From NCBI RefSeq assembly GCF_900102545.1, contig NZ_FNBN01000004.1, positions 484,680 to 548,679 of the forward strand: a stretch of DNA of 64,000 nt. The letters are read 5' to 3'. Of this stretch, positions 17,877 through 36,000 are shown in pieces; position 1 is the stretch's first letter, and the number at the start of each line of letters is the position of its first letter. A model generated the notes under the pieces. That model had not been told where the DNA came from. It did not search any database and saw only the letters and a list, made by a program, of their open reading frames with translations. A program made the position numbers and the translations under genes. The stretch is from Chitinophaga filiformis. GTDB lineage: Bacteria > Bacteroidota > Bacteroidia > Chitinophagales > Chitinophagaceae.

Positions 17877-18869
17877 ATGAACGTGACTATCGAATATGGT
17901 ATAGTCGGAATTCCTGAGCACCATATTAAAATAACGCATCAGTTGCCCCCACAATATGCTGCGTACCGCTGTGATTTTGCGGATGCGGTACTCGTGAGCA
18001 GTCCTTCTATAGATATCATTTATCATACGACTACGGCTGATGGCTGTAGCCTGAGCAATAACATCTTCATTGTTAAAGAACCTGTGCAGCTGCTACCGAA
18101 AGTCAAAGAAGGAGTAAGTATGGCGTGCTGTATGATAGAAGGCAGTATCAATCTTACCTATGCAGATCTGACGACCATTCCCCTGCTCCAGGGGCAGTAT
18201 AACTGTTTTCATATTATAGGCCAGCAGCAACCTACCTTGTTTAGTCCCGGAATTTATGAAGTGCAGTATTACGGGTTTAGCCGGGATATGATTGCGACGT
18301 ATACCAGTCATTCTAAATTAGCCAAGAAATGGCTGTATAAGATGGATATGGGTATGCCTGCGCTGCTTACTGCCAGTCCGGGGATTATCTGGGAAGGGCT
18401 GTATCATCTTAATCATGAGCTGAAGTTCTCGGTGATAAATACAGGATTACGGAAGACATGGCTGTTAGGCAAACTGCAGGAACTGCTAATTCTTATTCTC
18501 GAACAACAGGATACTAATACGGTGTCCTCTTCGCAGGATGTTACTTTTAATACGATTAAAACGTTTATCCGTAATAATGTGGATAAGGAGCTGACGATCG
18601 GCCAACTTGCTTCTACGTATTTTGTTAGTGCATCAAAACTGCGGCAGAGTTTTATTAAGTACTGCGGTATGTCGTTTAGTGATTTTCAGTTGAAGGTGAG
18701 GATGGAGAGAGCCAGGGTGATGTGTTTGGAAAATGATGTGAGCATAGCGCATATTGCGTATGTGCTGGGGTATAAGAACCCGTCGGCATTGACGAAGGTG
18801 TATAAGAATTATTATGGGGAGACGCCGAGTGAAACGAGGAAGAATGGGGGGTATAACATGCTGTCGTAA
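17877..18869 (+). CDS. AraC-family transcriptional regulator
   Basis: The 330-aa protein ends in a two-HTH AraC DNA-binding domain (about 225-326): LTIGQLASTYFVSASKLRQSF, then DVSIAHIAYVLGYKNPSALTKVYKNYYGETPSETRK. The N-terminal 220 residues are a poorly recognisable sensor region and show no clear cupin motif. It is the last + strand gene before the LanC/LanKC-like operon, with a 376-bp gap, so it may control that operon, though nothing in the sequence proves it. Confidence 0.92.
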   Translation: MNVTIEYGIVGIPEHHIKITHQLPPQYAAYRCDFADAVLVSSPSIDIIYHTTTADGCSLSNNIFIVKEPVQLLPKVKEGVSMACCMIEGSINLTYADLTTIPLLQGQYNCFHIIGQQQPTLFSPGIYEVQYYGFSRDMIATYTSHSKLAKKWLYKMDMGMPALLTASPGIIWEGLYHLNHELKFSVINTGLRKTWLLGKLQELLILILEQQDTNTVSSSQDVTFNTIKTFIRNNVDKELTIGQLASTYFVSASKLRQSFIKYCGMSFSDFQLKVRMERARVMCLENDVSIAHIAYVLGYKNPSALTKVYKNYYGETPSETRKNGGYNMLS

Positions 18870-19245: not shown

Positions 19246-20598
19246 ATGGTAACCCAGATACCAGATCGTCTTTTAAAGAGGGACGATGTAGATCAGCATG
19301 TCTTTAATCACGTTTCAGGCAACTATCCTATTTCATATGGAAAGCTGCGTGAGGCACTTTGCAACAATAAAAAGGAGGGAATAAAATTTATTAATTACCT
19401 GTTACAGGTGATTGAGTCTGCTCCATATATGAATGTTTCATTAGCGAAACATATTCTCTGTTTATGGACTGGTATATCTGCAGAGAAGTTCTCTCGCCAA
19501 ACGGATGTTAGTGTTTTTATTACTGATAGTGGTATAGCGGGATTGCTTCAATCTTATATTCGTTCAGATGAAAATAGCTATTCCGATATAAAAATTATAA
19601 GAGATGCGCTACTATCCTATAAACACGACCTAAGCAAAAGAATAAAAAGGGAAAACTCCAAACCCGGGTTACTTACAAAAGATTATCTAGCTGGCTTTAT
19701 TCAGGATAGCATTGATGACGTTTCAAATCCATCGATACAGCTTTTGAGCGCCGCCTGGAAGGCAGGGATAAGTGTTTCTAATATGCAACTTAAAACTGCG
19801 GATGCACTTTCTGTTATTGAAGATCTATTAGAGACATGTCCACCAGGTTTGTATAATGGTAGTCATGGTATAGCACGAAATCTGGCAACAGCTATAGAAT
19901 GTGGTCTTGTTCCTGCAGACCCAATCTATATAGACTGGATAAATCAATTACTCAGTAAAGAAGAAAATGACTATTCTCTCAAGCAAGGTATTGCCTGGTA
20001 TGGCATTGCTAGCATGGCTTGCAGGAATTTCATTTCTCCGGCAACTTTTGATGGAAGGCTGAAAAGGTATACTGCTACACTTGCAGATGCAATGCCTGAT
20101 AGCTCGGGATTTGCAACGGGATTAGCCGGCATTACTTATTTTTTGTTATCATATGCGCAATTATCCGGCAACAAAAAGTCGCTGCAAGCAGGGCTTGAAA
20201 ACCTGATATGTTTGACGGAGAGAGCTTATCATAAGGCAGGCACCACACATTGGCGATCTCCCCGTAATGAGCTTGTTACCCCTTGGGATGAAGACGGTGC
20301 TATACATATCTCACTAGTTTTCATTAAAGCTTATGAACTAACAGGGTCGATTGTATACAAACGATATGTGGAAGCGTCACTCTATTCACAAGAGATATAT
20401 ACTATTCATAATGATCTGAATGAGTATGCTGCCTTCGGTAACATTCTGCTTAATGCCTATCAGTCACTAAAAGAGCATTTGTGGTTAGGTAGAAGCTATT
20501 GGGGAGCCCAGGTAATTCTGCAATTGAAGGGACGAACGGATCTGGAAAAAGAAAACATGTTACAATTTCTTTTGAACTACTATAACCGACTTTCATAA
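19246..20598 (+). CDS. LanC-like cyclase homologue lacking zinc ligands
   Basis: The C-terminal 260 residues (about 190-450) have LanC-like alpha-toroid repeats: PPGLYNGSHGIARNL, GIAWYGIASM, GFATGLAGITYFLLSYAQ, ISLVFIKAYELTG and AFGNILLNAYQS. They align with the cyclase domain of the kinase protein encoded 306 bp downstream, so the two are paralogues. In true LanC enzymes a WCxG cysteine and a Cys-His pair hold catalytic zinc; here those positions read WDED and LNE, so no zinc site remains. The first 190 residues are unrecognised. It may be a pseudo-cyclase, a substrate-binding partner, or a class III-like zinc-free enzyme. First gene of the operon. Confidence 0.8.
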   Translation: MVTQIPDRLLKRDDVDQHVFNHVSGNYPISYGKLREALCNNKKEGIKFINYLLQVIESAPYMNVSLAKHILCLWTGISAEKFSRQTDVSVFITDSGIAGLLQSYIRSDENSYSDIKIIRDALLSYKHDLSKRIKRENSKPGLLTKDYLAGFIQDSIDDVSNPSIQLLSAAWKAGISVSNMQLKTADALSVIEDLLETCPPGLYNGSHGIARNLATAIECGLVPADPIYIDWINQLLSKEENDYSLKQGIAWYGIASMACRNFISPATFDGRLKRYTATLADAMPDSSGFATGLAGITYFLLSYAQLSGNKKSLQAGLENLICLTERAYHKAGTTHWRSPRNELVTPWDEDGAIHISLVFIKAYELTGSIVYKRYVEASLYSQEIYTIHNDLNEYAAFGNILLNAYQSLKEHLWLGRSYWGAQVILQLKGRTDLEKENMLQFLLNYYNRLS

Positions 20599-20631
20599 AA
20601 CCTATTCCATTATAATAATCCAATTAAGTAT

Positions 20632-20886
20632 ATGACAATCGACATTTTATATCGCCTGGAACATATAGATAATCTCATCCGTATTAAAGGGACAGGAACT
20701 CCTGATCAATTAGCACACCGGTTGGGAATGTCGAGGAGAAGCCTGTTTGATTATCTGAATCTGATGAAAGAGTATGGCGCTCCAATTAAATACTGCTCCC
20801 ACAGACAGAGCTACTACTATGAAACAGAAGGCCGTTTTATGGCAATGTGCACTTTTAAGGAAGAAGGAGAAGAAATTAACATCTAA
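20632..20886 (+). CDS. Small HTH protein
   Basis: The 84-aa protein is a single helix-turn-helix of the HTH_11/DeoR type (TPDQLAHRLGMSRRSLFDYLNLMKEYGAPI, about 22-51) followed by a short wing (YCSHRQSYYYE). Proteins of this kind are frequent in Bacteroidota next to peptide-modification and accessory gene clusters and are thought to be regulators. It sits 33 bp after the LanC-like gene and 17 bp before the kinase-cyclase gene, so it is part of the operon and may autoregulate it. Confidence 0.8.
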   Translation: MTIDILYRLEHIDNLIRIKGTGTPDQLAHRLGMSRRSLFDYLNLMKEYGAPIKYCSHRQSYYYETEGRFMAMCTFKEEGEEINI

Positions 20887-20903
20887 ACCCTCAAACTATT
20901 TAC

Positions 20904-23117
20904 ATGCGAGAAGATAAAAGTATCACCACGATCATCAATTCCGAAGCGGAAGAAAACATTAGTGAGGAAACGCCCAAGGGAAAAGTTGTAAAGAAAAGTG
21001 GGCAGCGCATTGGCTTCAATTATATCATTTATAAGAGTCTTAAGGAGAGTCAAAAGAATGATGTAATGAAGTGTTTCTATATAAAAGGGCTATTCAATTT
21101 CGGTACTTGTGTTATCAAAGAAGGCACCCTTGGAGACAGTAAGGACAAACATGGACGGGATATAAAGGATCGTTTGGTGTGGCAAAAGGAACTGCATGAA
21201 AAGCTGCAGGGTAAAGTACGAGTCCCTCGTTATTTGGGAAGTTTCGAAGAAAATGGAAACTATTATTTAGTCATTGAACGAATAAAGGGAGAATCTCTTG
21301 TACATATGTTCAAGAAACACAACAAAGAGTTAAGAGAAAGTGTGATTACCCGGAACAAACTGGGTCGAAAATTTCTTGGATATATTCTGAAGATTATTGA
21401 TCTCATGGATGAATTACATAAGAACAATGTAGTTCACAGAGATGCGTCCTCCAATAATTTCATGATTACACCTGGAGGTAAGATTGCTCTGATAGACCTT
21501 GAGCTCAGTTACTCCATTGATCAACAGTTACCCTCACCTCCCTTTCAGCTGGGCACCCATGGCTTTATGTCTCCCCAACAGATAGCAACATTAACTCCCA
21601 CTGTACAAGACGATATCTTCGCATTAGGTGCTAACATTTTCCAGATGTGGACGTATATATCTCCAAGTAAAATTGTAGATACTACCTATGAAAAACTAGT
21701 CAAGAAAATCAATTTCTTCATACCTGATCAAAAGGTGGCAGATATAGTTACTCAATGCATGCATCCGGATCCAGATGAACGCCCGGCACTACAAGCAATA
21801 AGAAAAATCATACACGAATACAAAGCAGATCACAACACAAAAATTCATAGAACTCAAAGCCATCCTCACTTATATGACAGGCAGGAAGTATTAGAGATCA
21901 TACAAAAATCCATCAATACTTATAGCACTCCTTTGCTGGCAGACCCTGAGAAAGGATGGTTTGCTGACAATATGAGAGATGCTTCTGGTGACAAAGATAA
22001 AATCAACAAAGCTTGGTTTGGCAGCTTCCACCAAGGAGTTGCCGGCGTAATTTATATGCTGAGTAAAGCAAAATACGTAGGAATGAACGTAGATGTCACG
22101 TCACCATTCGTGCAGAAAGGGCTTGATCTTATCGAACAAAAATATATTAACAGAAAGTACAGTACCTCCCCGAGCTTGCATTTCGGATCATCCGGTATCG
22201 CCGCTACTATTACTACAGCCATACACACAGGATTACTGGAATTTCAACCTAAGTATACCGATTGGATATACGCTCTATTAGAAAAAGAGAATGAAGACCT
22301 TAATATTTTCAATGGTATATGCGGGCAAGGGATTGCAAATATGATATGTACTCCTCTTATATCAGACAAGCAACTCTCAGAAAAAATACATGACTACGTA
22401 CAGCAATTACTTTCTCTGCAGCAAGAAGATGGTTCATGGATTATCTTCCCCAAAAGCAAGAAAAAGAAAGTACCTAAAGGGTTTGGGACAGGCATTTCTG
22501 GTATTATATACTTTCTACTCGAATACGCAAAACGTTTTAATGATGAGCAAGCCATCTTAGGCGCTGAACGAGGCCTGGAGTGGTTAATTGGAAAAGCTAG
22601 CCGGCATAAAGAACGAATTTGCTGGCCATCAAATTCTGGTAAAGAGCCTAACACATGGTGGACGATTGGAAATGCAGGAATAGCATTGGCATTTATTAAA
22701 GGATACGCATTAACCAATAATTTGAAGTATAAGAAGTTTGCTGCTGGCGGACTATACTATCACAAAGAAAAGGGCGTTAATAATAGTCTTAGTCAGACAA
22801 ATGGATTAAGCGGATTAGGAGAAATTTATCTGGATGCTTATCAGGTTTTGAAAGACCCTATATGGCTACAGCGAGCTGACTGGGTGGCACAAAACGTACT
22901 ACATTTGCTTAAAATCCATCCTACCCATGGTATATATTGGCTAACAGAGCATGAAAAACAACCAGCCCCCAGTTTTATGACCGGCAATAGTGGGGTGCTT
23001 CACTTTCTGTTAAGGTATTGCTATCCTGATAAGATTGGTATTCCTTTATCTGTATACAATCATATTGAAACAGAGATTCAAACTCCAAAATTTATAACAC
23101 ATATACCAATATCATGA
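20904..23117 (+). CDS. LanKC-like Ser/Thr kinase-cyclase without lyase domain
   Basis: Class III/IV lanthipeptide synthetases phosphorylate Ser/Thr, eliminate phosphate in an N-terminal lyase domain, then cyclise. This 737-aa protein has the kinase (about 35-307): K72 in CVIKEG, catalytic loop HRDASSNN (H178, D180, N185), metal Asp D198 in LIDLE, and GTHGFMSP. These are intact and LanKC-like (DLE rather than DFG). The LanC-like domain follows (about 325-715): HFGSSGIAATI, GFGTGISGIIYFLLEYA, NGLSGLGEIYLDAYQ, TGNSGVLHFLLRY. No room exists for the usual lyase of about 200 aa. The zinc positions read WTIG and TN instead of WCxG and CH. The 3' end overlaps the next gene in ATGA. Confidence 0.85.
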   Translation: MREDKSITTIINSEAEENISEETPKGKVVKKSGQRIGFNYIIYKSLKESQKNDVMKCFYIKGLFNFGTCVIKEGTLGDSKDKHGRDIKDRLVWQKELHEKLQGKVRVPRYLGSFEENGNYYLVIERIKGESLVHMFKKHNKELRESVITRNKLGRKFLGYILKIIDLMDELHKNNVVHRDASSNNFMITPGGKIALIDLELSYSIDQQLPSPPFQLGTHGFMSPQQIATLTPTVQDDIFALGANIFQMWTYISPSKIVDTTYEKLVKKINFFIPDQKVADIVTQCMHPDPDERPALQAIRKIIHEYKADHNTKIHRTQSHPHLYDRQEVLEIIQKSINTYSTPLLADPEKGWFADNMRDASGDKDKINKAWFGSFHQGVAGVIYMLSKAKYVGMNVDVTSPFVQKGLDLIEQKYINRKYSTSPSLHFGSSGIAATITTAIHTGLLEFQPKYTDWIYALLEKENEDLNIFNGICGQGIANMICTPLISDKQLSEKIHDYVQQLLSLQQEDGSWIIFPKSKKKKVPKGFGTGISGIIYFLLEYAKRFNDEQAILGAERGLEWLIGKASRHKERICWPSNSGKEPNTWWTIGNAGIALAFIKGYALTNNLKYKKFAAGGLYYHKEKGVNNSLSQTNGLSGLGEIYLDAYQVLKDPIWLQRADWVAQNVLHLLKIHPTHGIYWLTEHEKQPAPSFMTGNSGVLHFLLRYCYPDKIGIPLSVYNHIETEIQTPKFITHIPIS

Positions 23118-23899
23118 AGATACTCCAAGTTATCGACTCAGCATCTATATTATTCTCTCAAAAGATAAAAGTTATACTCGTCCATGCAGAAACCAAGGAA
23201 TTAATTAGTACACACATTCTTGACAAGAGGCAATTACCCCCTGAATTCAACAAACCTACTATATTAGAGATTGAAAATATTCGCTGGCGGGTGGTAAAAG
23301 CTAATGTCGATAGTCCAGGAAACTATTTCCGCTCACCTAAAATATCATTACACGTAATATTATCTGATCATCCACTTCCTGTAAATAAATTTTTAGTACC
23401 AACTCACGCCTTATTTAACCAATTCACAACTACAAACACAATTTCTTTATTCAAAGACTTTAGTTTGGCACTCGCTGACGAAGAGTGGCTCCAATTTGAA
23501 TTCCACCCAGTCGAAAGCATCGACTTCATACAAGAAACAACTTCGATAATCTCAACCATTATAAACTCACCAGATGAAAACGGCAACCTCCTAGGTTATA
23601 CTAGTTCTTATATAAGAGATTCTACCTGGGCTCGTCCGCTACAAATTCAGCTTGATGAATTTTGCTCATTTATGAATATTAAAGAGAAAGGGAATATCAT
23701 TATGCCGAACAATAATTTTATTGAAAATGGATTCTCACTGCGGTCCGATAATTACATTTATTATGGCATCACAAATAATGGCGCAATTAAAAAACTAGCA
23801 ATAACAGGATTTGATTGTATTGACGATGAACTTTCCGCTATATTATCAAGATTTAATCTTGTATTCGTGGATTGGTGTAATGCAAGCATATTAAGCTAA
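23114..23899 (+). CDS. Unrecognised protein coupled to the kinase-cyclase gene
   Basis: The 261-aa protein has no signal peptide or membrane segment and no motif I recognise. It begins MKILQVIDSASILFS and is rich in short hydrophobic strands, suggesting a mixed alpha/beta fold. Its start overlaps the kinase-cyclase stop (ATGA), which points to translational coupling and often to a complex of fixed stoichiometry. It is the last gene of the operon; the next gene is convergent and 30 bp away. It is a candidate accessory subunit or substrate-recognition protein. I do not assign a function. Confidence 0.75.
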   Translation: MKILQVIDSASILFSQKIKVILVHAETKELISTHILDKRQLPPEFNKPTILEIENIRWRVVKANVDSPGNYFRSPKISLHVILSDHPLPVNKFLVPTHALFNQFTTTNTISLFKDFSLALADEEWLQFEFHPVESIDFIQETTSIISTIINSPDENGNLLGYTSSYIRDSTWARPLQIQLDEFCSFMNIKEKGNIIMPNNNFIENGFSLRSDNYIYYGITNNGAIKKLAITGFDCIDDELSAILSRFNLVFVDWCNASILS

Positions 23900-23929: not shown

Positions 23930-24835
23930 TTATGGCATCTCTTCTGGCTTTCCATTACTTTTAATTCTAAAAAAATGGCGTCCTTTAATTAACAGGCCAT
24001 CAGAATGTTCTTCCATATGTCCAGTATGAACATTTATAAGCTTACCGGCATAGAAGAGTTCTATCTTTTCCGCAGCCTGATAGCCACTCACTATCCGTTT
24101 TACCTTAAAACGCTTTAATATCTTATTAACTTGATCCTCATCACTCCTTACTCCTTCGCCCTCAATATTACCATTGCCCGGAAAAATATCTCCTATAGTA
24201 GGAGATTTAAATAGACTCTTAGGGTTGCCAAGGGTTTTAGCCAAACTATTAATCTCTTCGATAGTTCTAGCACCGTAAAGTACCCTCATAGAAAGGCCTC
24301 CGTGTACAAACAATGTATGTCCAATTTTCTCGATTAGATTTTTTGTTTTCAACCAACGCCATAATTCATTGCTACCATCATACAGGACAGTCGAAGCATT
24401 GCGCCCAACTTTTTCTGCCTTTGCATATTGGGGATGCCTGAATCGCCATTGACCATTTAAATTCTTTATTTCTTTATCACCCAAAATGAAATGTAGATGC
24501 CCATTCATCTTCTCCGCCTTTTCCTCAAGTGAATAAATAAGCCAAAGGCATTCTAGCACGTCTTCGTTATCCTCTAAACAATTTCCTAGTATAATGACAT
24601 GCCCTTCTTTAAAAACCCAATTAAGTTGTTTATCTATGATTTTACCACGATATAGAATCTTACAAAATTTCTGAAAATCCCCTCCGACATCAGATATTAC
24701 AAACATGCCACCTCCTCCTTTAAACACACTCCTTTCATTTATCAGCTCTCGCTTTAATCGTAGAGAAAAAAACCGATCTTGCTTATTAGGGTCTGCATGC
24801 GGTATCTGCAGGGAAATTTCTATTTTTTCTGGCAT
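23930..24835 (-). CDS. Degenerate calcineurin-like metallophosphoesterase (pseudoenzyme)
   Basis: The 301-aa protein follows the fold of the phosphatase domain encoded at 28.7-29.6 kb closely (ECLWLIYSLEEKAEK, FILGDKEIKNLNG, LKTKNLIEKIG, LFVHGGLS). Its metal motifs are changed: FVISDVGGDF keeps D49, motif II reads GN85 instead of GD, motif III reads GDKE (119-122) instead of GNHE, and the late GH reads GY in IVSGYQ. Only the HGG histidine is clearly kept. Catalysis is therefore unlikely; a binding or regulatory role is inferred. No signal peptide, so it should stay in the cytoplasm. Last gene of a three-gene leftward operon, 5 bp after the lipoprotein stop. Confidence 0.82.
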   Translation of the reverse strand: MPEKIEISLQIPHADPNKQDRFFSLRLKRELINERSVFKGGGGMFVISDVGGDFQKFCKILYRGKIIDKQLNWVFKEGHVIILGNCLEDNEDVLECLWLIYSLEEKAEKMNGHLHFILGDKEIKNLNGQWRFRHPQYAKAEKVGRNASTVLYDGSNELWRWLKTKNLIEKIGHTLFVHGGLSMRVLYGARTIEEINSLAKTLGNPKSLFKSPTIGDIFPGNGNIEGEGVRSDEDQVNKILKRFKVKRIVSGYQAAEKIELFYAGKLINVHTGHMEEHSDGLLIKGRHFFRIKSNGKPEEMP

Positions 24836-24840
24836 ACATT

Positions 24841-25389
24841 CTAATTTCTTGATCCTGAAAAAAACTCTCTTAAATCATCTCTTACTGTCACGGGTATTGC
24901 TCTTACCCTTTTATATGCATTACGATTATATGTATAATAAATCGTTGGTTTATCTTGGCATAAATTCAATCGATACGACAAATTAGAGCTATCCAAAAAT
25001 AATTTGTTCTCAATTGTTGGCAACTTGCTATTCTGCTCTTTGAAATATCCCTCAATAAATTGTCTCCCACCGTTGGCATTAATAATAATAAAATGTCGAT
25101 CCTTAATGTTGTCCTTGTGCTTAATAATACTGTCAATAGTCTTCTTCCGACAACTTGGACAACTTGCCTGGACAGGCAATATCAGAAATGCGAGAGAATC
25201 ATTAAGTTTATCATCAACAACTACATTATCTACGACTTTTAGTAGATTTTTAAATATTGAGTCGCCGCTTTCCTTTGCGACTATCATCTCGACGCTCCTT
25301 TTACTAACATCGGGCTTATCACAAGAGAAGGCGATGACTGACAATGCAATCACAAAAATAAGCGACGATTTTTTAGAATAATTTTTCAT
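24841..25389 (-). CDS. CxxC thioredoxin-like lipoprotein
   Basis: The 182-aa product has a lipoprotein signal (residues 1-23, lipobox IAFSC with C23 as lipid site). A redox motif SCPSC places C77 and C80 at the start of a helix after a strand (LAFLILPVQ), as in thioredoxin folds, and a later KPTIYYT supplies the cis-Pro-like strand. It is shorter than TlpA proteins. It probably handles thiols of exported proteins, which suits the neighbouring Cys-containing peptides. Start overlaps the stop of the upstream DUF4221-like gene in ATGA, so the pair is co-translated. Confidence 0.8.
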   Translation of the reverse strand: MKNYSKKSSLIFVIALSVIAFSCDKPDVSKRSVEMIVAKESGDSIFKNLLKVVDNVVVDDKLNDSLAFLILPVQASCPSCRKKTIDSIIKHKDNIKDRHFIIINANGGRQFIEGYFKEQNSKLPTIENKLFLDSSNLSYRLNLCQDKPTIYYTYNRNAYKRVRAIPVTVRDDLREFFSGSRN

Positions 25390-26564
25390 TTATTTTCCCT
25401 CTGGTATTGGGTTAACGTCATTTTAGCGCTTTTATCATCGGTGTAAAGCAATCTTACAAAGCGCAACTCATGTCCATCCCTAGATTTTGCCATCGTATAA
25501 ATAGCACCGTCGTCCAAAAAAAGCAAGAAATTAAATGAAAAATCATCATTGATACCAGATTCACCAATTATCTTGAAGGTTTCATCAAATACTATTATAC
25601 TTCTCTTCTTTCTACCAGATTTTGATTGGAAATCAGCCTCACTCATTTTCTGCTTTGCCAATCTCAAGTATCTTTTTCTATAAGGATCAAACAATATTTC
25701 GCCATAAGAATCACGTAAAGAATATACCTTGTAACCGTCCTCCTTTTGAAGCTGTTCTTTTGAAACTGTCTCAATTTCTCCTTTTTGAAATTTACTTCTC
25801 CCAAAATATGCCACGTGATAATTGGCTAAATCAGTTTCATAAATATTAGGATCGGCGGCAAAGCTAAAAACGAAATTCCCTCTATTATTCATGCAATAGC
25901 CATAATCTACAAAAGCATAACCTAATAAGCCATTTTGATAAATATCAGGAAGAGAATAGTAAGGAGTCTTTGTTTGGTTATTCATATCGAACTCGTACAA
26001 AGTCCTCCATCTCCTTTGAGCATCAAGAGATTTGTCATTAATCGCTGGTTTAACGGCTATATAAACCATATTACCTCTGAAAAGCATTGGAGATGTGGTA
26101 GTAGTATATGGTCTTCTACCTAAATCCTCCGAATATTTTATTCCCCTTTTTACTTTCCCGGTACTATCTACTAAAAATAATGTAGTCATCGTTGTGATAT
26201 ATATACTATCAAAATTCTTAACAAATACACTTACCTTATCAAGTTTGCTACTTCTAATCCATGTATATAAGGGCACTCTTTTGATCAATCTACCGGAATA
26301 AAAATTATACATACTAATGGATTTGGAACCACGATCATAAAAAGACATATAAGTGCTATCCCTGTTTTTAAATAAATTCAATGACTCAATTCGCTTATAG
26401 GTATGCTCAGCCAAAATAAAGCACAACGTATCCTCAGTCGGGTTTAACCGAATATCTCCATAAACAGGTGCTATGTATCTATAATCTGCCCTCACAACAC
26501 TTTCTTTCTTGTGACAACTAATGAACACTGAACATATAATAATAAACTTTGCCAGATTTCTCAT
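25386..26564 (-). CDS. DUF4221-like lipoprotein, predicted beta-propeller
   Basis: From ATG 26564 the protein has 392 residues and a lipoprotein signal (MRNLAKFIIICSVFISC, C17). The body has repeating strand-rich blocks (YRYIAPVYGDIRLN, SFYDRGSKSISMYNF, LFLVDSTGKV, IVFDETFKIIGES) as in DUF4221 and BF3164-type six-bladed propellers of Bacteroidota. These are commonly found beside small exported peptides and TlpA-like thioredoxins; their role is unknown. The frame is open to 26633, but that start lacks a signal peptide. A TGCA-box at 26654-26669 lies about 90 bp upstream, in the same arrangement as before the peptide genes. Confidence 0.82.
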   Translation of the reverse strand: MRNLAKFIIICSVFISCHKKESVVRADYRYIAPVYGDIRLNPTEDTLCFILAEHTYKRIESLNLFKNRDSTYMSFYDRGSKSISMYNFYSGRLIKRVPLYTWIRSSKLDKVSVFVKNFDSIYITTMTTLFLVDSTGKVKRGIKYSEDLGRRPYTTTTSPMLFRGNMVYIAVKPAINDKSLDAQRRWRTLYEFDMNNQTKTPYYSLPDIYQNGLLGYAFVDYGYCMNNRGNFVFSFAADPNIYETDLANYHVAYFGRSKFQKGEIETVSKEQLQKEDGYKVYSLRDSYGEILFDPYRKRYLRLAKQKMSEADFQSKSGRKKRSIIVFDETFKIIGESGINDDFSFNFLLFLDDGAIYTMAKSRDGHELRFVRLLYTDDKSAKMTLTQYQRENK

Positions 26565-26653
26565 TTTATCATTTTTATTATTTCTCTTTGGGCATTGGCT
26601 TTCCGCATCAAACTCCAAGCCTTGATAAAGCACCTACAAATTAGTTTTAGCGG

Positions 26654-26848: not shown

Positions 26849-27196
26849 ATGAATTCATATAAAAAAATATCGTTGTTAACGCCCTTCTTACAGTTACGCC
26901 CATTGTTACCGAAGTTGTTATTCCAGAAAATTCACCATAAAGAGTTAATAATGGAACATTAAGAGCATTTAATACCGGTGATAGTGATAATGCCGACGTA
27001 TTATTCATGTTTAATTGTGTCAGGTGGTGGTCCACATCCTTGCGCAAAAAATCTAACAATTATAACCGGCGCTTGTGTAGTAATGGATGAAAGTAGAATC
27101 CTGATGTATTGTCTACATTATCAAACAGTAGACAATACATCAGACGCTGGAGGTCCTGGTAATAGGAATCAAAGCAGTGTATTGGATATAGTATAA
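26849..27196 (+). pseudogene. Decayed copy of the secreted CX10C peptide gene
   Basis: The sequence can be followed from an ATG at 26849 to a stop at 27194-27196 only by changing frame. At 26941 a frame reads RVNNGTLRAFNTGDSDNADV, matching the intact gene at 28268; after a 1-nt insertion near 27000 the homology continues as SCLIVSGGGPHPC, then DESR, YQTV and GGPGNRNQSSVLDIV. Earlier leader sequence is also scrambled. It is therefore a frameshifted paralogue, not an expressed protein. Opposite-strand frames over it are not real genes. Confidence 0.75.
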
Positions 27197-27409: not shown

Positions 27410-27745
27410 ATGAAAAAAAACTATTTCACAAATCTATCAATATTAGGTTTAGTCCTCCTAGTTGCTTCGGCTGCGACCACGTCTATCATTCCTGATAAAT
27501 CAAACAACAAAAGAGCTAACAATGGGACATTGCGACCTAGCGACAACGAAGAGGAGCTTACCTGTATATTTGTAACAGGGGGAGGTGTAAACTCATGTAC
27601 AGTAAGCATAACCAATACAACACCAATTGGTGGATTCGAAAGTCTAGTTAAAATAGGTACTTTTTATTATCAAACAATAGGCAACACGTCAATAACCGCA
27701 GACGTTGTTGGAGATCAAAACAGTATGTTAGAAATTGTAATATAA
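27410..27745 (+). CDS. Secreted CX10C peptide 1, candidate modification substrate
   Basis: The 111-aa product has a signal-peptide-like leader (NLSILGLVLLVASAATTS, residues 8-25), then IPDKSNNKRANNGTLR, nearly identical to peptide 2. The core has two cysteines, C52 and C63, bracketing IFVTGGGVNS, and is rich in Ser/Thr (CTVSITNTTPIGG, YYQTIGNTSITAD). The Cys pair could form a disulfide, or thioether rings with nearby Ser/Thr if the kinase-cyclase acts on it; the latter is speculation. It lacks the TGCA-box seen at the other two copies. Confidence 0.7.
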   Translation: MKKNYFTNLSILGLVLLVASAATTSIIPDKSNNKRANNGTLRPSDNEEELTCIFVTGGGVNSCTVSITNTTPIGGFESLVKIGTFYYQTIGNTSITADVVGDQNSMLEIVI

Positions 27746-28267: not shown

Positions 28268-28624
28268 ATGAAAAGGGTATCTGTTAAAAACCTATCATTA
28301 TTAGGTTTAGTTTTAATGGCTGCATCTGCCGTAACGGCAGCCGTTATGCCTGATAAATCAAATAACAAGAGAGTTAACAATGGAACATTGAGAGCTTTTA
28401 GTAATGGTGATTCTGTTAATGAAGATGTTATATCATGCGTAATCGTATCTGGCGGTGGCGTAAACTCTTGCACAGTAAGCGGAACAGCTACTACAGCTGC
28501 TGGGGCTCAAATTGATGAAAGTAGAGTGCAAATCGGCAGCCTCTTCTATCAAACAGTAGGTAACACTTCCCAAACTGGAGGCCCTGCGAATGGGAACCAA
28601 AGTAGTGTGCTGGCTGTTGCATAA
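28268..28624 (+). CDS. Secreted CX10C peptide 2, candidate modification substrate
   Basis: The 118-aa product parallels peptide 1: leader VKNLSLLGLVLMAASAVTAA (6-25), then MPDKSNNKRVNNGTLRAF, then C57 and C68 around VIVSGGGVNS, followed by TVSGTATTAAGA and YQTVGNTSQTGG. Leader and linker are the best conserved parts, as in precursor families in which a recognition segment is fixed and the core varies. It could equally be a plain secreted protein of unknown role that is common in Chitinophaga relatives. It ends before a 35-bp hairpin that separates it from a convergent gene. Confidence 0.75.
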   Translation: MKRVSVKNLSLLGLVLMAASAVTAAVMPDKSNNKRVNNGTLRAFSNGDSVNEDVISCVIVSGGGVNSCTVSGTATTAAGAQIDESRVQIGSLFYQTVGNTSQTGGPANGNQSSVLAVA

Positions 28625-28638
28625 AAATAGCATCCCCA

Positions 28639-28711
28639 TTAAAATAGTAATTGAATAAAAAAAGGTGCTTGCAAAATGCAAGCACCTTTTTTTATTCAAT
28701 TACTATTTTAA
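28639..28711. terminator. 35-bp perfect hairpin between convergent genes
   Basis: Arms 28639-28673 and 28677-28711 are perfect complements around a 3-nt loop, including a GGTGCTTGCA core and flanking A7/T7 runs. The T-runs make it an intrinsic terminator on both strands. The stop codon of the leftward gene (28703-28705) lies inside one arm. Confidence 0.85.
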
Positions 28712-31333
28712 AAAAACGTACTTCTCCTCCTTTTTGAGAGTACTATTAACTTCAAGCGAAGTTTTCTTTCCTTGGGTATTAACTCGGTAAAATTCTCCAT
28801 ATTCAACCAATAACGCCTCTGATTTGCCATCTGCATGACGCGTATCTGTATTTATAACTTTGTTAGCATGATGCATGCTAACTGTATCACTCACAATAGT
28901 ATGTCCTGTAATGATATGGGAAACTGAATAAATTTTTAACGTACTATCAATATATCCAGTATTCTTTTGCCCCGTATAGTATCCCCTATACCAAAAAGGA
29001 GATTGAGAAGAACTCATTACAACATTTGCATATTCATCTGTGAGTGCATCGCCATTTCTGTCATAATACTCTCTGGCGATCCTGTTTATCTGTTCTAGGG
29101 ATAATTTCAATTTGTTGATTCCTGGAGATACTCCTCCATGGGCAAATAATAAGTTTCCAATTTTTTCGATTATATTTTTCGTCCTCAGCCATTTACCTAA
29201 TACTGCATCATTGGAATATAGCTCACTGGTTGAGCTATTCAGTATAGCCGCATTTCTTTTATACTTTTCATGGACATACCTGTTATCTCCTTGAAGATTC
29301 ATTATTTCATGATTGCCTAGTATAAAATGTACAAATCCTCCTTTCTCTTTTGCTTTTTGCTCCAATGAGTAAATCAGCCATAAACATTCTGTCACCTGGC
29401 TACCTCTATCAAACACATCACCTAAAAGAACCAAATGTCCCTTTCCGAAAGTCCAGTCATAATTTTCATCTATTACACCATTTGAACGCAGCAGATCCCT
29501 AAGCGCTTTTAAATTTCCCTCTATATCAGAGATAGCGAGTATCTTCTCGGCATCGCCAAATTGACACGGCGTCCCATGAGCTTGTTCTTTTAACTTAACT
29601 GTAAATGAGTTTCCTCCTGTATCTGAAGGGACATTAAACGATACAGCTTGTTTTTTATTTATTGTCTCGTTCATCAATGATATCCCATTTATTCGACTTA
29701 TTCTTATTGTGCTATCCCCTTCCCAAACATAAGGTCCATCCTTTATAAGCAGCAACTGCTCCTTTATCAGATTTACTAACAACCTCCCATTATCTATTCT
29801 AGGATCTATTTTTGATCGTCCGCGCACCAAATGGCCATATCCATCCATAAGAAGGATGGATGGATATGCCGCAATTCCAAAATTCTTTATCATGCTATGC
29901 TCATTCCCTTCCCCGTTTGTGTATAAATTAATACCATTCCCGGTAGTATATTTTTTCTGACCCACACTTTGAAGCCATCGATCCTTACTTTCATCTACAC
30001 ACACATTCAAAAACACAACGTCAGAATCTGTTTTAAAGGCCTCTTCCACTTTTGACAGAGCGGGAACCATTTGTATGCAACCTTTACAACCGGTAAACCA
30101 GAAATCCATAATTACCACTTTGCCTTTCAAATCTTCCTTGCTAAATATATTTCCATACATGTCTACCAGCTTAAAACCGACGTCTCTCTTTCCCATTTGT
30201 CTTTCCCGTTCCTCTACCTCATATTTACGAACTTCTTTTTTATGGTTTTCAAAGCCCGGCTGCTTGTAATAGTCTGCTAGGATTTCCTCTATCTCAGGAT
30301 AAAAGCCCAATTCATGCAGCAACCCATGTTCATGATTGAAAAAAAATGCCAGAACTTTCTCTCTAATAAGGCCTTTGTATCTTCGTTTTGCCAAATTGTA
30401 TCTAACGACATATCCATCTACCTCTTCTTTACCTAAAATTGAAGTATCTGACCTTCTATCTTTAAAAAATCGGTTTCTCTCCCTCAAAGCATAAAACTTT
30501 AGAATTGCATATAGATAATATGGATCTCCCACAAAGGAAGACTCGTATTGAAGCCATTGCGCCCCAGCGCCATTCATTGTTGAGTCAAAAATTACGCAAA
30601 GATCGCGATTAGTCAATCCGTACTGATTAACTATTAAGGAATCAGATGAATCTGATTTCACGGAACCACGACTTAAATAGGAGAAGCGCACCATCCTCTT
30701 TTCTTCTATCTCATATAAAGCTCTTTCTTTTATTGCATTGTAAGCAAAATCCGACATTCGACTTCTATAGTTATCAATCAACTCCGTCGTTTTCCTTAAT
30801 TTATCGTTCAAGTAAGTATTCCATGCAAAATAATCATTTAGATTTTTCAGGGGTTTAAACCTTCCAGACAATGCTTTAAAGGAATCCGTAAGTTCCATGC
30901 TGTCTTTAAGTAAGGCTAACTTATAAAGTAATTCCCATTTAGCAGCCCCCCTCCCTGAGAAAATAGGTTCATCTCCTTTGTAATTCACTACAATGCTATC
31001 GCCAGACTCTATATGATAACCAATCTTAGACCCATTTGCGAAAAAATCTCCTTTAATATATTTTGGCCTATCTAAAGACAACACACATTTTATTCTTTTA
31101 TTGATGACACGTTTGACAATGGTATCATACTTATCACTGGTATATGACACCACTTCCATAGGGACAGTTGCCAAATCAATCGTTTCTTTTATATAATCGG
31201 GAGGAACCATCCCCTGCAGCACGGCCCTACCTTTAGAATAATTCGTTTTCTTTTGAGCAAATCCATGATATACACTCAAAAAAAAAACTAGCGTCGTTAC
31301 AATTTTTATTCTCATCACTTTTCTATTTTTCAA
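28703..31333 (-). CDS. TlpA-like thioredoxin fused to a metallophosphoesterase
   Basis: The 876-aa product has a signal peptide (about 1-26), an N-terminal DUF4369-like strand region (about 33-125), a helical stretch, a thioredoxin/AhpC-TSA domain (about 384-528; C416-x-x-C419 in FTGCKGC, cis-Pro in AAYPSILL) and a calcineurin-like phosphoesterase (about 595-850). Metal motifs are ISDIEGN (D603, with Glu where His is usual), GD (638-639), GNHE (673-676), AHGG (H732) and TGHT, so it looks active. Predicted periplasmic. A thioredoxin-phosphatase fusion is uncommon; the phosphatase part is the closest relative in this window of the pseudoenzyme at 23930. Its stop lies within the shared terminator. 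Confidence 0.87.
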   Translation of the reverse strand: MKNRKVMRIKIVTTLVFFLSVYHGFAQKKTNYSKGRAVLQGMVPPDYIKETIDLATVPMEVVSYTSDKYDTIVKRVINKRIKCVLSLDRPKYIKGDFFANGSKIGYHIESGDSIVVNYKGDEPIFSGRGAAKWELLYKLALLKDSMELTDSFKALSGRFKPLKNLNDYFAWNTYLNDKLRKTTELIDNYRSRMSDFAYNAIKERALYEIEEKRMVRFSYLSRGSVKSDSSDSLIVNQYGLTNRDLCVIFDSTMNGAGAQWLQYESSFVGDPYYLYAILKFYALRERNRFFKDRRSDTSILGKEEVDGYVVRYNLAKRRYKGLIREKVLAFFFNHEHGLLHELGFYPEIEEILADYYKQPGFENHKKEVRKYEVEERERQMGKRDVGFKLVDMYGNIFSKEDLKGKVVIMDFWFTGCKGCIQMVPALSKVEEAFKTDSDVVFLNVCVDESKDRWLQSVGQKKYTTGNGINLYTNGEGNEHSMIKNFGIAAYPSILLMDGYGHLVRGRSKIDPRIDNGRLLVNLIKEQLLLIKDGPYVWEGDSTIRISRINGISLMNETINKKQAVSFNVPSDTGGNSFTVKLKEQAHGTPCQFGDAEKILAISDIEGNLKALRDLLRSNGVIDENYDWTFGKGHLVLLGDVFDRGSQVTECLWLIYSLEQKAKEKGGFVHFILGNHEIMNLQGDNRYVHEKYKRNAAILNSSTSELYSNDAVLGKWLRTKNIIEKIGNLLFAHGGVSPGINKLKLSLEQINRIAREYYDRNGDALTDEYANVVMSSSQSPFWYRGYYTGQKNTGYIDSTLKIYSVSHIITGHTIVSDTVSMHHANKVINTDTRHADGKSEALLVEYGEFYRVNTQGKKTSLEVNSTLKKEEKYVFLK

Positions 31334-31609: not shown

Positions 31610-33049
31610 CTAATAACCTATATTCTGTGGCAGATTCTCAAGCATTACGTCTTGCAATGGAATAGGGGATATAGCTTTGTCACTTGGATAAGGCAATTTA
31701 TTCCAATCATTATTTAAAACGTCCTTTCTGACAACTGGTTGCTGCCATCGCTGCAAATCATACATGCGCATTCCCTCAAAAGAAAGCTCTTTTCTACGCT
31801 CCTCCCAAATCGCATTAATTAATTCATTTCCACCAATAGTTAATGAAGATATCTCAGGGTCAGCTCTTTTTCTCACCGCATTTAAATAGTCTCGAGCTTT
31901 ATTTTCATCGCCCAATAGGGCGCACGATTCTGCAGCCATCAAATAAACTTCTGATGACCGTATAATTGGATGATAATAATCAGCTTCCGGAACAGTACGC
32001 ATCCCAGCGACATTTACTGGAAATTTAGTTACCTTAAACGTACCATCAGAATATGTCACCCATTTCGACCGTACATCATTAGAATCCTTCATAAGGATTG
32101 ATGCAATATCTTCTGTCGCCAGGTAATATGAAAATGTTCCCCTCAAGTATCTACCTAAGAAATTACTATTATAGAGATCTCCTGGTGTAGCTTGAAATAG
32201 AACCTCTGTTTCAACAAAATTCTTGTGATAAAATAAACCATCTGGATATCCGTTAGCAATGGTTAAAAGCGGCACCTGTTCGCATAATTTTTCCGACAAT
32301 TCTCTCGTTTGAGCATATTTGCCACTAAATAAATAAACTCTTGCCAGTAAGGCCCTAGCGGCATAGTTGTTAATATATCTTATATCTATTGATGACATCT
32401 CGGGCAATAACTGAACTGCCATATTTAAATCCGCAATTATACTATTATAAACCTCCGCCACAGATTGTCTTGTATAATGTTGCGTAACATCTGAAGTTGT
32501 AATATACGGGACGCCCATATGGCTTGCATTTGGCGTAAACTTATAGGTTTGAGCAAATATATTAACCAACTTAAAATACAACAATGCTCTTAAAGCGTAG
32601 GCCTGCCCTTTAATATTATCAGCGACATCTGGATTTTCTTTCCGATATTTCTCAATATCCTCAATTATAAAATTGCATGCCCTTATTATAAAATAACTAG
32701 ACCGCCAAGAGCCATTCATATTCACCGAACCGGTGCTTTCACTTAGGTCGGGTCTGTCTCCCTTTTGCTGAGCCCAAGTATAATGAAGAAACAGACTTTG
32801 AGGAGGTAACGCCAAAGGCTTTAAATTATCTGCAATTAGTTCTGGATATGCGTTACCGATTCCTTGCACAGAGTACTGATTGAATAATTCATATGTTCCA
32901 TTCAAAAACTCTTTCATACTACCGAGATCTCTGACATACGCCTGCCTCGTCAATACACTTTTATCAACTACATCCAGAAAATCTGAACTACATGCAGCGA
33001 TGTTTGTGCATAAAATAACCAGTATAACTAAATATTTATGGTGCTTCAT
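31610..33049 (-). CDS. SusD/RagB-family outer-membrane lipoprotein
   Basis: SusD-type proteins sit on the cell surface as a lid over the SusC channel and bind the substrate. The 479-aa product has a lipoprotein signal (lipobox AAC, C20) followed by FLDVVDKS, the TPR-like helical core (AYALRALLYFKLVNIFAQTY) and the C-terminal SusD domain (VYLMAAESCALLGDENKARDYLNAVRKRA, with GMRMYDLQRW). It lies 35 bp downstream of the SusC gene on the same strand. Substrate unknown; glycan or peptide ligands are both known for this family. Confidence 0.93.
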   Translation of the reverse strand: MKHHKYLVILVILCTNIAACSSDFLDVVDKSVLTRQAYVRDLGSMKEFLNGTYELFNQYSVQGIGNAYPELIADNLKPLALPPQSLFLHYTWAQQKGDRPDLSESTGSVNMNGSWRSSYFIIRACNFIIEDIEKYRKENPDVADNIKGQAYALRALLYFKLVNIFAQTYKFTPNASHMGVPYITTSDVTQHYTRQSVAEVYNSIIADLNMAVQLLPEMSSIDIRYINNYAARALLARVYLFSGKYAQTRELSEKLCEQVPLLTIANGYPDGLFYHKNFVETEVLFQATPGDLYNSNFLGRYLRGTFSYYLATEDIASILMKDSNDVRSKWVTYSDGTFKVTKFPVNVAGMRTVPEADYYHPIIRSSEVYLMAAESCALLGDENKARDYLNAVRKRADPEISSLTIGGNELINAIWEERRKELSFEGMRMYDLQRWQQPVVRKDVLNNDWNKLPYPSDKAISPIPLQDVMLENLPQNIGY

Positions 33050-33084: not shown

Positions 33085-36000
33085 TTAAAAAGTTGCATTT
33101 AGCCCAATGCTATAAGAACGTTGCTGTGGATACAAGAAATTTCCATTACCAAATACATTTACATTCTCGGGGTCATCACCCGAATATCTTGTCCATAAAG
33201 CAAGATTATGCGCTTGAATAAACACTTTTGCTCCATCCAAATGCAAATGTTGCAGCATTCCCTTATTTAAATTATATGTTAGAGAAATATTAGCTAAACG
33301 GATAAAATCTCCATTGAACAAAAAACGCGTTGAAGGAGCCGTGCCGTAATCGTACTCTGCTCCAGCCACTCCGTTTAACAATCTTCTAGGATTAAGCGTT
33401 ATATCACCAGGTTTTTGCCAGCGATTCAGCGCAGATTTACTTTGGTTGATATATGGATTTTGGCCATCATTCTGTAAAAATGAGCCATTATAGTAAATTT
33501 TCGATCCATATTGGTAGTACAACATTGCCGCTAGTTCAATGCCTTTCCATGAAAATGTGTTAGTAATTGAACCAAATCCATCCGGTTGGGGCTTACCTAC
33601 ATATTTTTGCTTTGCTGCATAATAATCCTCCGTATTTTTTCCTAAAGAGTCTATCCACATTGGTCTCCCATTTGCTGGATTTACCCCTGCCCAAATTGGC
33701 AAATAAAATGAATTGTATTCATGGTCAACTTGATTCACAACCAATCCTCCCCCTGCAGACATCACAGTAGAGAAAAAAGATTTTACGAGCTTATTGCTAT
33801 TTCTGCTCCAATTGGCGCTAACACCCCACTTAAAGTTCTTCAACTCGATAATGGAAGCCATTAGTGATAATTCAATCCCCGAGTTTTTCATATCTCCGAT
33901 GTTAGCGGTAATAGTGCTAAAACCTGTAGCAAGTCCTAAAGGGATGTTACTAGCAATCAGATTCTTAGTCTTTCTATTATAAACATCTACAGTCACACCA
34001 ACACGCTGTTTAAACATCTGAAGATCTAATCCGGCATTCCAGGTAAAAGTCTCTTCCCATTTAATCCCCGGATTACTAGGTCTACCACTCGTACGCGGAA
34101 AAACCGCACTCTCATTCAGAAATTGCTGCATAGAAAGGTAATCGTATCGCAAATTATCAGCTATTGCGGCTGAATTCCCTGCTGGTCCAAAACTCCCCCT
34201 TATTTTAAAGTTATCTAACCATCCTTTTGTTCGCTTGAAGAAAATTTCTTCCGATGCAATCCAGCTTCCTCCTATTGACCAATAGCTACCAAACCGCTCA
34301 TTTCTGCCAAATCGTGAAGACCCATCTGTTCTAATTGAGCTTGTTAAAAAATACTTGTTTCTGAATCCAGTATTTAGTTGACCGAAATATGATAATAATG
34401 TTTGTCTTCCATCACTGCTTGCCGCGCCAAACAATATGCCTCCTTGCGCCTGATCAAGCAATGGGTTCGTTGAAAACCCTCTTACCTCGACATATGAACT
34501 CTTAACAGTCAATATTTGTGCCTCTTGCCCAATCAAGAACTGAACATTAAGACCATTAGTGAATTGTTTGTTATACTGCAAAGTATTTGTGTTTATAATA
34601 TTGGCTGTCCTATAATTCTCTTCTCTCAGCTTTCCCCCTGCATCAGTACTACCATCAACTGCCAGCGATGGATGTATCTTCTCTTTTAATTCGTTCAACA
34701 TAAAATCTACCCCCACGCTTGAGTTCAATTTGAAATTATTCAGAAAACTGGCTTCGCCATATAATCTACTTAACCCACGATAGGCTGTATTTCTGTTAAT
34801 ATTCAGTATTGCTTCAGCTGCAGGATTAGCTGTCAAGAAACCTCCCGAGAGAGTTTGCCCCCAAGAATAATTGTAAACAAACTTACCCGAAGAATCATAG
34901 ATCGGGTTTAAAGGAGAAGAAGACTGCAGCACATCAAAAGATGCTCCATTGTTATAATTCTGAACATTATATGACAAGGCTGCATTTAGCCCTATTTTTA
35001 GCCAAGCTCTAGGGCGATTTTCATAGTTAACACGAAGAGACTTACGATCGTAACCTGTATTTTTAACTACTCCATTTTGTTTCGTATACTCGAGATTTAC
35101 ATAAAAATTGGATTTGTCATTTCCCCCCGACAATGATATTTCATTGGCCATCGAAATTTCATTATTAGAAAATAATTCTTTTCCCCAATCAGGAGCAGGA
35201 TAAAAACTAAGATTACCATCTTTATCTCTATAAGTTGGGAATTTTGGTGTGGCGGGGCTAGGCGTGATTTGTAAATCCGCAAGAATATCTGTGTCTGTTA
35301 TGCCAGGATTAGAATTCCGGTAAGCTTCAAACAATAATTCAAGATATTCCTGTTGGTTAAGTAAAGGGACTCTTTGTTTAAGGCGTGAGGAAACATCTGT
35401 TTGATGGCGGAAATTAAAAATTGTTTTACCGAGCTTTCCTTTTTTAGTGGTTATTAAAATAACCCCATTACTAGCCTTAGCTCCATAGAGCGCAATGGCC
35501 GAAGCATCCTTCAAAATGGAAATAGATTCAATATCAGAAGGATTTAATTGTGCAATAGGATCGCTCACAGGCGATGAATTGCTCGATAAGGCACTACTTT
35601 GTCTAGCAGGATCCTGGAAAACGGGAATACCATCCATAACTATTAATGGATTTCTAACTGTTGCCCCAGCATCAATTTTTCCTCCAGTTGCTATTCCTCT
35701 TAACAAAAAATTACTCGGTGCACTACCCGGCTGTCCATTTCCAGCAGTCACTAGTAGCCCAGGCACTAGCCCCTGTAAACTTTTATCAAAACTTCTATTT
35801 GGCAACGTTTGAATCTGTTCGCCTGTTACAACTGTTATTGCGCCAGTTAAAGCTCTTCTTGTTGAAGTTCCATATGCCGTCACTATAGTTTCATTGAGGC
35901 TATTATCTCCTGGCTTCAGTTGTACTTTCACATTCGTCCTCCCTGCCAGAGGCATCTCGGTCGTTACAAATCCAGTATAACTCACTTGTATAACATCATG

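Follow-up and report, generated by a model that had tools for sequence, protein, structure and literature searches.

A Lyase-Less Kinase-Cyclase of Chitinophagaceae, Possibly a Peptide Kinase Derived From Lanthipeptide Synthetases

The window analyzed here, a 64,000-nucleotide stretch of contig NZ_FNBN01000004.1 (positions 484,680 to 548,679; coordinates below count from its first letter), encodes P0002 (20904..23117, + strand), in which Pfam, NCBIfam, alignment, tree and structural model show a LanL/LanKC-type kinase joined to a LanC domain that has no zinc ligands, and no lyase domain. We refer to proteins of this type by the working name KC (kinase-cyclase) and propose, with a probability of a little under one half (about 0.48), that KC arose from a lanthipeptide synthetase and serves as a peptide kinase, which would leave phosphate on exported peptides, and that a phosphatase of the same cluster would be its counterpart. 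The lack of a lyase is clade-wide rather than a truncation in one genome, being found at 18 named loci, all from Chitinophagaceae.

These loci came from a contig scan with patterns derived from KC itself, which also returned one 22 percent match in a Lentisphaerae metagenome-assembled genome that was set aside; the closest named relative at the locus is Chitinophaga filiformis, with a KC 71 percent identical. Two loci (L104 and L116) end before the peptide position, leaving 16 of the 18 long enough for the downstream cluster. Co-occurrence was counted in 244 Chitinophagaceae genomes, 10 with KC and 234 without; these include the window genome (G000, 8.6 Mb, with the window on its contig C14) and share contigs with six of the named loci, and Fisher values from them overstate independence because the KC-cluster genes travel as one cluster. 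In a weak search of a phylum sample of 395 genomes, with at most two candidates scored per genome, only the window genome and a lyase-kinase of G029 were found among the matches listed.

Kinase Conservation and Ancestry of the Kinase-Cyclase

The catalytic residues that the original prediction assigned to this 737-residue protein, namely K72 (in VIKEG), HRD at 178-180 and D198, are in place, and K72, H178-R-D180, N185, D198 and E200 are invariant across the 18 aligned KC members. Pfam detects Pkinase at residues 95-300 (1.9e-19) and LANC_like at 374-710 (5.4e-25), and the RamC_N lyase domain gave no match at E up to 1; this agrees with the predicted fusion of a kinase to a LanC-like domain without a lyase. 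The LanL model NF038150 matches residues 31-706 at 268.5 bits, starting from profile position 182, and the LanKC model NF038151 scores 160.4 bits, each below its curated cut-off (650 and 575 bits, respectively). Scored by itself, the kinase part reaches 132.6 bits with the LanL model, 96.0 with the LanKC model and 50.3 with PknB. At the DFG position all 21 KC carry DxE, as do the LanL and LanKC references, compared with DFG in the three ordinary kinases; a passage of one study discusses this DxE-type feature for ThurKC (PMC10604976). PADLOC, used here without a cut-off, gave 34 matches to P0002, and the 25 listed (best 2.1e-23, the systems compared being the anti-phage kinases PD-T4-6 and MAD6) all fall in the kinase part; a phage-defense kinase was considered as a reading, and the matches listed touch only this generic domain.

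The predicted model of P0002 (pLDDT 81) contains a LanC fold, as the original prediction anticipated, and its residues 57-720 match residues 233-861 of a CuvL chain with Z 42.4 over 577 residues and an rmsd of 3.2 (8car). Mean identity among KC is 58.8 percent in the kinase compared with 44.9 percent in the cyclase.

The 21 KC form one clade (99/99) in a 40-row tree of kinases, and a branch supported at 97/96 unites them with full-length and lyase-kinase proteins of the family and with the Haematobacter and L. paracasei references, separate from three ordinary kinases (one clade, 100/98), two annotated LanL and an annotated LanKC. KC thus groups with the family's LanKC-like kinases rather than with ordinary Ser/Thr kinases, in line with the original prediction, with the reservation that the annotated LanL and LanKC rows fall on the same side of that branch as the ordinary kinases. 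The branching order of KC, LanL and LanKC is uncertain because the tree is unrooted, contains several long branches and has 13 well-supported inner branches of 37; rooting on the ordinary kinases would place KC within the LanKC-type set. Excluded from the tree were P0001 (see below), the split KC of L116, the short proteins of L059 and L062, and an S. clavuligerus stretch (L134) in which a long forward frame under the match was not found. Collectively, the profile matches and the structural model indicate that P0002 is descended from lanthipeptide synthetases.

Two variant forms were seen among relatives. The KC of a metagenome-assembled genome (L116:944-3081 and L029:824-3108) lies in two frames, through either a real break or an assembly error, with a helix-turn-helix gene directly upstream. 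L059:6832-8613 (593 aa) and L062:8120-9871 (583 aa) encode shorter kinase-LanC proteins with no lyase and a degenerate kinase, the latter near five peptides of 83-92 aa with a repeated plan.

Absence of the Lyase and of the Zinc Site

Five full-length or lyase-kinase relatives were scanned and all gave RamC_N, as did an annotated LanL (L136, 9.5e-58). In the 17 KC aligned with P0002, a lyase domain cannot fit, because only 23 to 74 residues precede the position of P0002 residue 31. A lyase profile built from ten Chitinophagaceae rows (A3; at most 13 candidates scored per genome) matched 11 of the 244 family genomes, the only KC genomes among them being that of the window and G214, and the association of KC with this lyase is weak (2/10 KC genomes vs. 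9/234 others, p 0.07). The other eight KC genomes gave no match to this LanKC-type profile, which a far-diverged lyase could escape, and one of the eight (G153) is 84 percent complete. HopA1 lyases likewise gave no match in any of the ten KC genomes. A lyase supplied in trans was considered as a general answer and rejected on the eight of ten KC genomes without an A3 match.

Both residues of the K-x-H motif are present in all five reference enzymes, and in the 11 Chitinophagaceae lyase domains aligned the K is replaced in every case and the H in seven; lyase domains such as those of G015, G060, G114 and G214 lie outside this alignment. All four lyase-kinases aligned lack both residues, which would correspond to the catalytic K-x-H residues of the literature. 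Among these four is a cyclase-less lyase-kinase of the window genome (L122:7690-9889; contig C11, ~625.7 kb), which heads a cluster of its own with MauE, a two-cysteine signal-like peptide, a thioredoxin-like protein, and SusD-like and SusC-like genes.

At the zinc positions P0002 reads W-T-I-G and T-N-G, matching the WTIG and TN of the original prediction. The full zinc triad is present in one of the 21 KC (L114), both cysteines are kept in L109 and the histidine in L118, and the residues found otherwise are very mixed. The GFAHG histidine, present in three zinc-site references and absent from two zinc-less ones, is kept in 2 of the 21. Alignment and model thus point to a cyclase whose zinc site is lost and whose fold is kept. 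The KC with all zinc ligands (WCEG, CHG) belongs to Chitinophaga barathri (L114:9944-12049).

Small Peptides of the Cluster

The CX10C peptides named in the original prediction were located on the + strand at 27410..27745 (peptide 1) and 28268..28624 (peptide 2); by sequence each has a signal-like leader, the CX10C spacing and a Ser/Thr-rich core, and the broken remnant of a third such gene, with a stop and frame changes, lies at 26863..27190 (+ strand). Small Ser/Thr-rich peptides with signal-like leaders are found at all 16 KC loci that are long enough, L118 included, so that the operons of relatives do carry small peptide genes, as the original prediction required; for L109, L110, L113 and L118 the leader was recognized by eye.

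Thirty peptides from KC loci were compared, 22 recovered by leader motif (one duplicate removed) and eight by eye, L053 having been left out as it is the same contig as L106. Their leader resembles MKKxSxKKLSxLGLVLMAASAVTAA, and their cores contain exactly two cysteines in 25 cases, more in four and none in one (L109). Mean pair identity is 48 percent in the leader (19 loci, a value inflated because the peptides were found partly by leader motif) and 16 percent in the core; for comparison, the N-termini of 14 phosphatase fusions share 17 percent and seven leaders from kinase-less loci 28 percent. Serine and threonine make up on average 25 percent of the 30 cores, compared with 19 percent in the seven MauE peptides from kinase-less loci (p 0.004, on rows that are not independent of one another). 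Homologues of peptide 2 at E < 1e-5, a limit chosen after viewing the match list, occur in eight of the 244 genomes, all KC-bearing, and in neither of the KC genomes G150 and G153.

MauE occurs at ten places in the window genome. The nine besides the lyase-kinase cluster lie in eight stretches, where we found seven small signal-like peptides carrying between two and four cysteines in the core, in this respect like those of KC, and no match to KC, P0001 or the lyase-kinase; in the MauE stretches L155 and L159 no such peptide was seen, and some of the MauE-peptide stretches also carry thioredoxin-like and SusC/SusD genes. Since such peptides occur without a LanKC-type kinase or LanC, two cysteines alone do not indicate lanthionine. 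A scan of five of the seven against DUF6520 (Pfam PF20130) gave four matches, three with E values between 2e-4 and 4e-4 and a fourth of 0.15; none of them reaches the cut-off, and neither does the match of the L122 peptide. Peptides 1 and 2 differ in having no DUF6520 match at E up to 1.

A Phosphatase Fusion Seen Only in Kinase-Cyclase Genomes

On the opposite strand, next to peptide 2, lies a gene for a thioredoxin-metallophosphatase fusion (28703..31333, - strand; Pfam Metallophos 7.2e-17, Thioredoxin_8 5.1e-9) with an N-terminus that is signal-like by eye, a CKGC motif and intact phosphatase motifs. The fusion is present in all 16 KC loci long enough, and in an alignment of these 16 with the window the phosphatase motifs (D-[IL]-E-G, GDxFDRG and GNH[ED]) are intact in 17/17 and the thioredoxin CxxC is kept in 12/17. 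Relatives of its phosphatase domain occur in 33 of the 244 genomes, with frames of fusion length (823-896 aa) in nine of the ten KC genomes and in none of the 234 others. In the tenth, G153, the match lies at a contig start. The 23 non-KC genomes with a relative have phosphatase frames of 331-424 aa only; the frame of G205:C417 begins close to the end of its contig, where a fusion is possible.

A second, stand-alone metallophosphatase-like protein (23930..24835, - strand; Pfam Metallophos 1.6e-7) has altered metal-site motifs (ISDVGGDF, GNCLEDN and GDKE). Among the 17 such proteins at these loci the motifs are kept in six (L105, L107, L111, L118, L119 and L120) and altered in 11, including that of the window, and L109 has no such protein. 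Compared with C. filiformis, the window's copy has a dN/dS of 0.11 at a high dS of 2.1. It is a possible pseudophosphatase, which would bind rather than cleave.

Operon Partners and Neighboring Genes

The operon on the + strand reads AraC regulator, P0001, P0003, P0002, P0004. P0001 (19246..20598, 450 aa) is the LanC-like paralogue named in the original prediction, and its zinc positions indeed read W-D-E-D and L-N-E. Its Pfam LanC match is weak (17.0 bits vs. a 23.2-bit cut-off), and its homology to the LanC domain of P0002 is clear (E 7.5e-33, 36 percent over residues 197-427). Residues 66-172 weakly match the kinase C-lobe region of P0002 (E 6.1e-4), with the HRD and DxE parts missing, so that P0001, without a kinase catalytic loop, looks like a shortened kinase-cyclase copy; the original view of it as a separate LanC-like paralogue thus stands for its homology and not for its being a plain free LanC. 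Its orthologue was found in L103 alone of the 18 named loci (633 bits, 68 percent identical, dN/dS 0.15), the others scoring 106-167 bits, the level of KC itself. That P0001 is a fresh pseudogene was rejected on this identity and dN/dS.

P0003 (20632..20886, + strand) is a small helix-turn-helix protein (HTH_29 8.2e-5, below the cut-off) with homologues in all 18 named KC loci. PADLOC gives it a weak WYL match (2.3e-4, 18.8 bits) and none to P0001 or P0004. In eight of the 18 loci a MauE-like gene stands upstream of the helix-turn-helix gene in place of P0001; judged by the CSCGG motif, no MauE was seen in the window.

P0004 (23114..23899, + strand, 261 aa) is assigned to no family, and its gene shares 4 bases with the end of that of P0002. 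Searches of Pfam, NCBIfam and PADLOC gave it no match at E up to 1. Its predicted model (pLDDT 87) matched nothing in the PDB at E 0.001 or below, the best VIA Z being 5.6 over residues 11-86, and two 12-row alignments contain no invariant Lys or His, K17 being nearly invariant in the second. P0004 is present in 11 of the 18 named KC loci and absent from the available DNA of the other seven; other members of its family stand at places apart from KC (L030-L037). Relatives exist in 16 of the 244 genomes; that of G229 is weak (25 percent) and away from KC, and that of G209 is apart from KC. P0004 might regulate, bind or catalyze. As the missing lyase it was judged unlikely, for want of an invariant Lys or His and of a PDB match at E 0.001, although its relatives in all ten KC genomes speak against that rejection and an unlisted lyase fold could still exist.

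The AraC-family regulator upstream (17877..18869, + strand; Pfam HTH_18 8.2e-20) has neighbors 88 and 89 percent identical in L103 and L115. The - strand between the stand-alone phosphatase-like gene and the peptides encodes a 182-aa protein with a CPSC motif, an N-terminus that is lipoprotein-like by eye and no Pfam match (24841..25389), and a DUF4221 protein (25386..26633; 4.3e-19), each with a homologue in 15 of the 16 loci long enough. Beyond the fusion lie a SusD-like outer-membrane protein (31610..33049, - strand; SusD-like_3 1.1e-29), a SusC-like TonB-dependent receptor (33085..36504, - strand; Plug 6.5e-18), an ECF sigma factor (36878..37426, + strand; Sigma70_r4_2 7.2e-10) and a FecR-type anti-sigma factor (37494..38639, + strand; FecR 1.1e-18). 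Elsewhere in the window genome there are two likely class I lanthipeptide clusters (L125:9025-13655 on contig C11 and L124:8011-13028 on C17), recognized by LanC-like genes beside large proteins that are LanB-like by eye and by small leader peptides.

A Proposed Peptide Kinase and Its Alternatives

We propose that KC probably binds the conserved leader of the cluster's small peptides and would phosphorylate Ser and Thr in their variable cores, in the cytoplasm, where the phosphate would stay because KC has no lyase; the LanC fold may have been retained for binding or architecture, not zinc-dependent ring closure. The peptides would then be exported through their signal-like leader. Outside the cell, the thioredoxin-metallophosphatase fusion would remove their phosphates and, in those fusions that retain the CxxC, also act on the cysteine pair, handling disulfides; P0001 may be a helper or decoy. 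We infer the phosphorylation step from the invariant kinase and the missing lyase, and the later steps from linkage. The fuller picture, in which KC is a pure peptide kinase lineage and leader-guided phosphorylation inside joins with dephosphorylation and redox processing outside in one envelope-spanning cycle, is offered tentatively and may well prove wrong; we know of no such trans-envelope phosphorylation cycle among bacterial peptides.

A number of points weigh against this proposal. Classical metallophosphatases have D-x-H at the first motif, where the fusion has D-x-E, and the fusion may act on another target. Since the genes move together in a single cluster, finding them in the same genomes does not amount to separate evidence for a common pathway. 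Core Ser and Thr content is also 22 percent in eight peptides encoded near short, lyase-kinase or full-length relatives, the peptides of KC loci were found in part by their leader motif, and the kinase-less control set is small. Passages of one study describe elimination by LanM enzymes in the kinase site and activity of CaoY without K and H (PMC9486802), so that the loss of K-x-H is a hint and not a proof, and because zinc-less class III cyclases still close rings, according to a passage of another (PMC10604976), missing ligands do not exclude cyclization. The KC of C. barathri has the whole triad, a lyase-kinase without a cyclase lies inside the cluster of two of the 18 KC loci (L103 and L105), and the window genome and G214 have a lyase domain elsewhere. 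Finally, P0004 relatives are found in 10/10 KC genomes and 6/234 others, and the missing activity could therefore sit in P0004.

An alternative is a variant lanthipeptide system, in which KC eliminates phosphate in its own kinase site in the manner of LanM, or a lyase-kinase or P0004 does so in trans, and the zinc-less LanC closes rings as in class III. We consider this doubtful. The top profile and structural relatives of KC are lanthipeptide synthetases, the clusters of L103 and L105 and the wider window genome do offer a lyase-kinase, P0004 relatives accompany KC in every KC genome, the L114 triad is intact, and 25 of the 30 peptides, all of them Ser/Thr-rich, have two core cysteines. However, eight of the ten KC genomes have no A3 lyase match, K-x-H has lost both its K and its H in the four lyase-kinases examined, no Lys or His is invariant in P0004, a peptide of L109 was seen without any core cysteine, and cysteine peptides of similar plan exist without such enzymes; moreover, elimination of the phosphate would leave a phosphatase partner unexpected. 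The original prediction had left two options: either another protein carries out the elimination, or the enzyme is a peptide kinase whose phosphate is not removed. The second is now the better supported, because LanKC-type lyase matches are missing from eight of the ten KC genomes and HopA1 matches from all ten, K-x-H is altered in the 11 lyase domains aligned, the kinase is invariant and the fusion was seen only in KC genomes; the first retains the two lyase-kinase loci, the lyase-kinase of the window genome and the P0004 relatives.

It is unlikely, in our estimate, that KC is instead a signaling kinase with a target other than a peptide, for example the helix-turn-helix protein, P0004 or the sigma/anti-sigma pair, in a regulated outer-membrane system with LanC as its sensor. 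The presence of small peptides at 16/16 loci long enough and the assignment of the kinase to the LanKC/LanL type, by profile and DxE motif, argue against it and must be set against a P0003-type gene at 18/18 loci and the AraC, ECF sigma and FecR genes of the window cluster; P0004, while present at 11 of the 18 loci, has relatives in six KC-less genomes as well and is not in the available DNA of 7/18 loci. That KC and P0001 are functionless, decaying remnants of a lanthipeptide system is highly improbable, for the lost zinc ligands and lyase, the broken third peptide gene and the two-frame KC of G153 stand against kinase residues invariant in 18/18, the fusion in 16/16 loci long enough and the P0001 dN/dS of 0.15.

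Relation to Known Lanthipeptide Systems

KC resembles class IV LanL in having a kinase with DxE followed by a LanC fold, and the nearest solved structure is CuvL (PDB 8car/8cav, entered as a trifunctional synthetase), which we take to be a class IV LanL; it differs in lacking a lyase, in its NF038150 score below the cut-off and in an incomplete zinc triad in 20/21 KC. With the class III enzymes ThurKC, SalKC and PneKC it shares a kinase joined to a LanC domain without zinc ligands (model Z 28.6 to 33.9), and it differs from them in the absent lyase, the NF038151 score below the cut-off and the mixed residues at the former zinc positions. We file KC in neither class, because the defining lyase is missing and, for class IV, the zinc site as well. 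Class V splits dehydration between an APH-type kinase and a HopA1-type lyase as separate proteins, as a passage of PMC9486802 describes; KC genomes depart from this in having no HopA1 match and a kinase of LanL/LanKC type.

Nearer at hand, the full-length and lyase-kinase LanKC-like proteins of Chitinophagaceae (L054, L056, L058, L060, L064 and L122) fall on the same side of the kinase tree as KC, and L054, L056 and L122 are also found beside MauE and small signal-like peptides. They differ in keeping an N-terminal lyase-type domain, minus the K of K-x-H, and the stretches L054-L064 gave no phosphatase match except in L057, which is a KC locus. The MauE-linked DUF6520-like peptides of the window genome differ from those of KC in having no match to a LanKC-type kinase or LanC nearby.

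Among the open-access literature matches listed, titles and abstracts name neither a lyase-less kinase-LanC clade nor this peptide cluster. A mining rule given in a passage of PMC7268733 assigns any LanC-like protein with a kinase domain to class III or IV, and such a rule would count KC clusters as lanthipeptide synthetases. If the proposal is true, a natural product enzyme would have dropped its defining chemistry, with the first half-reaction becoming an end in itself, and exported ribosomal peptides would carry phosphate as a lasting modification.

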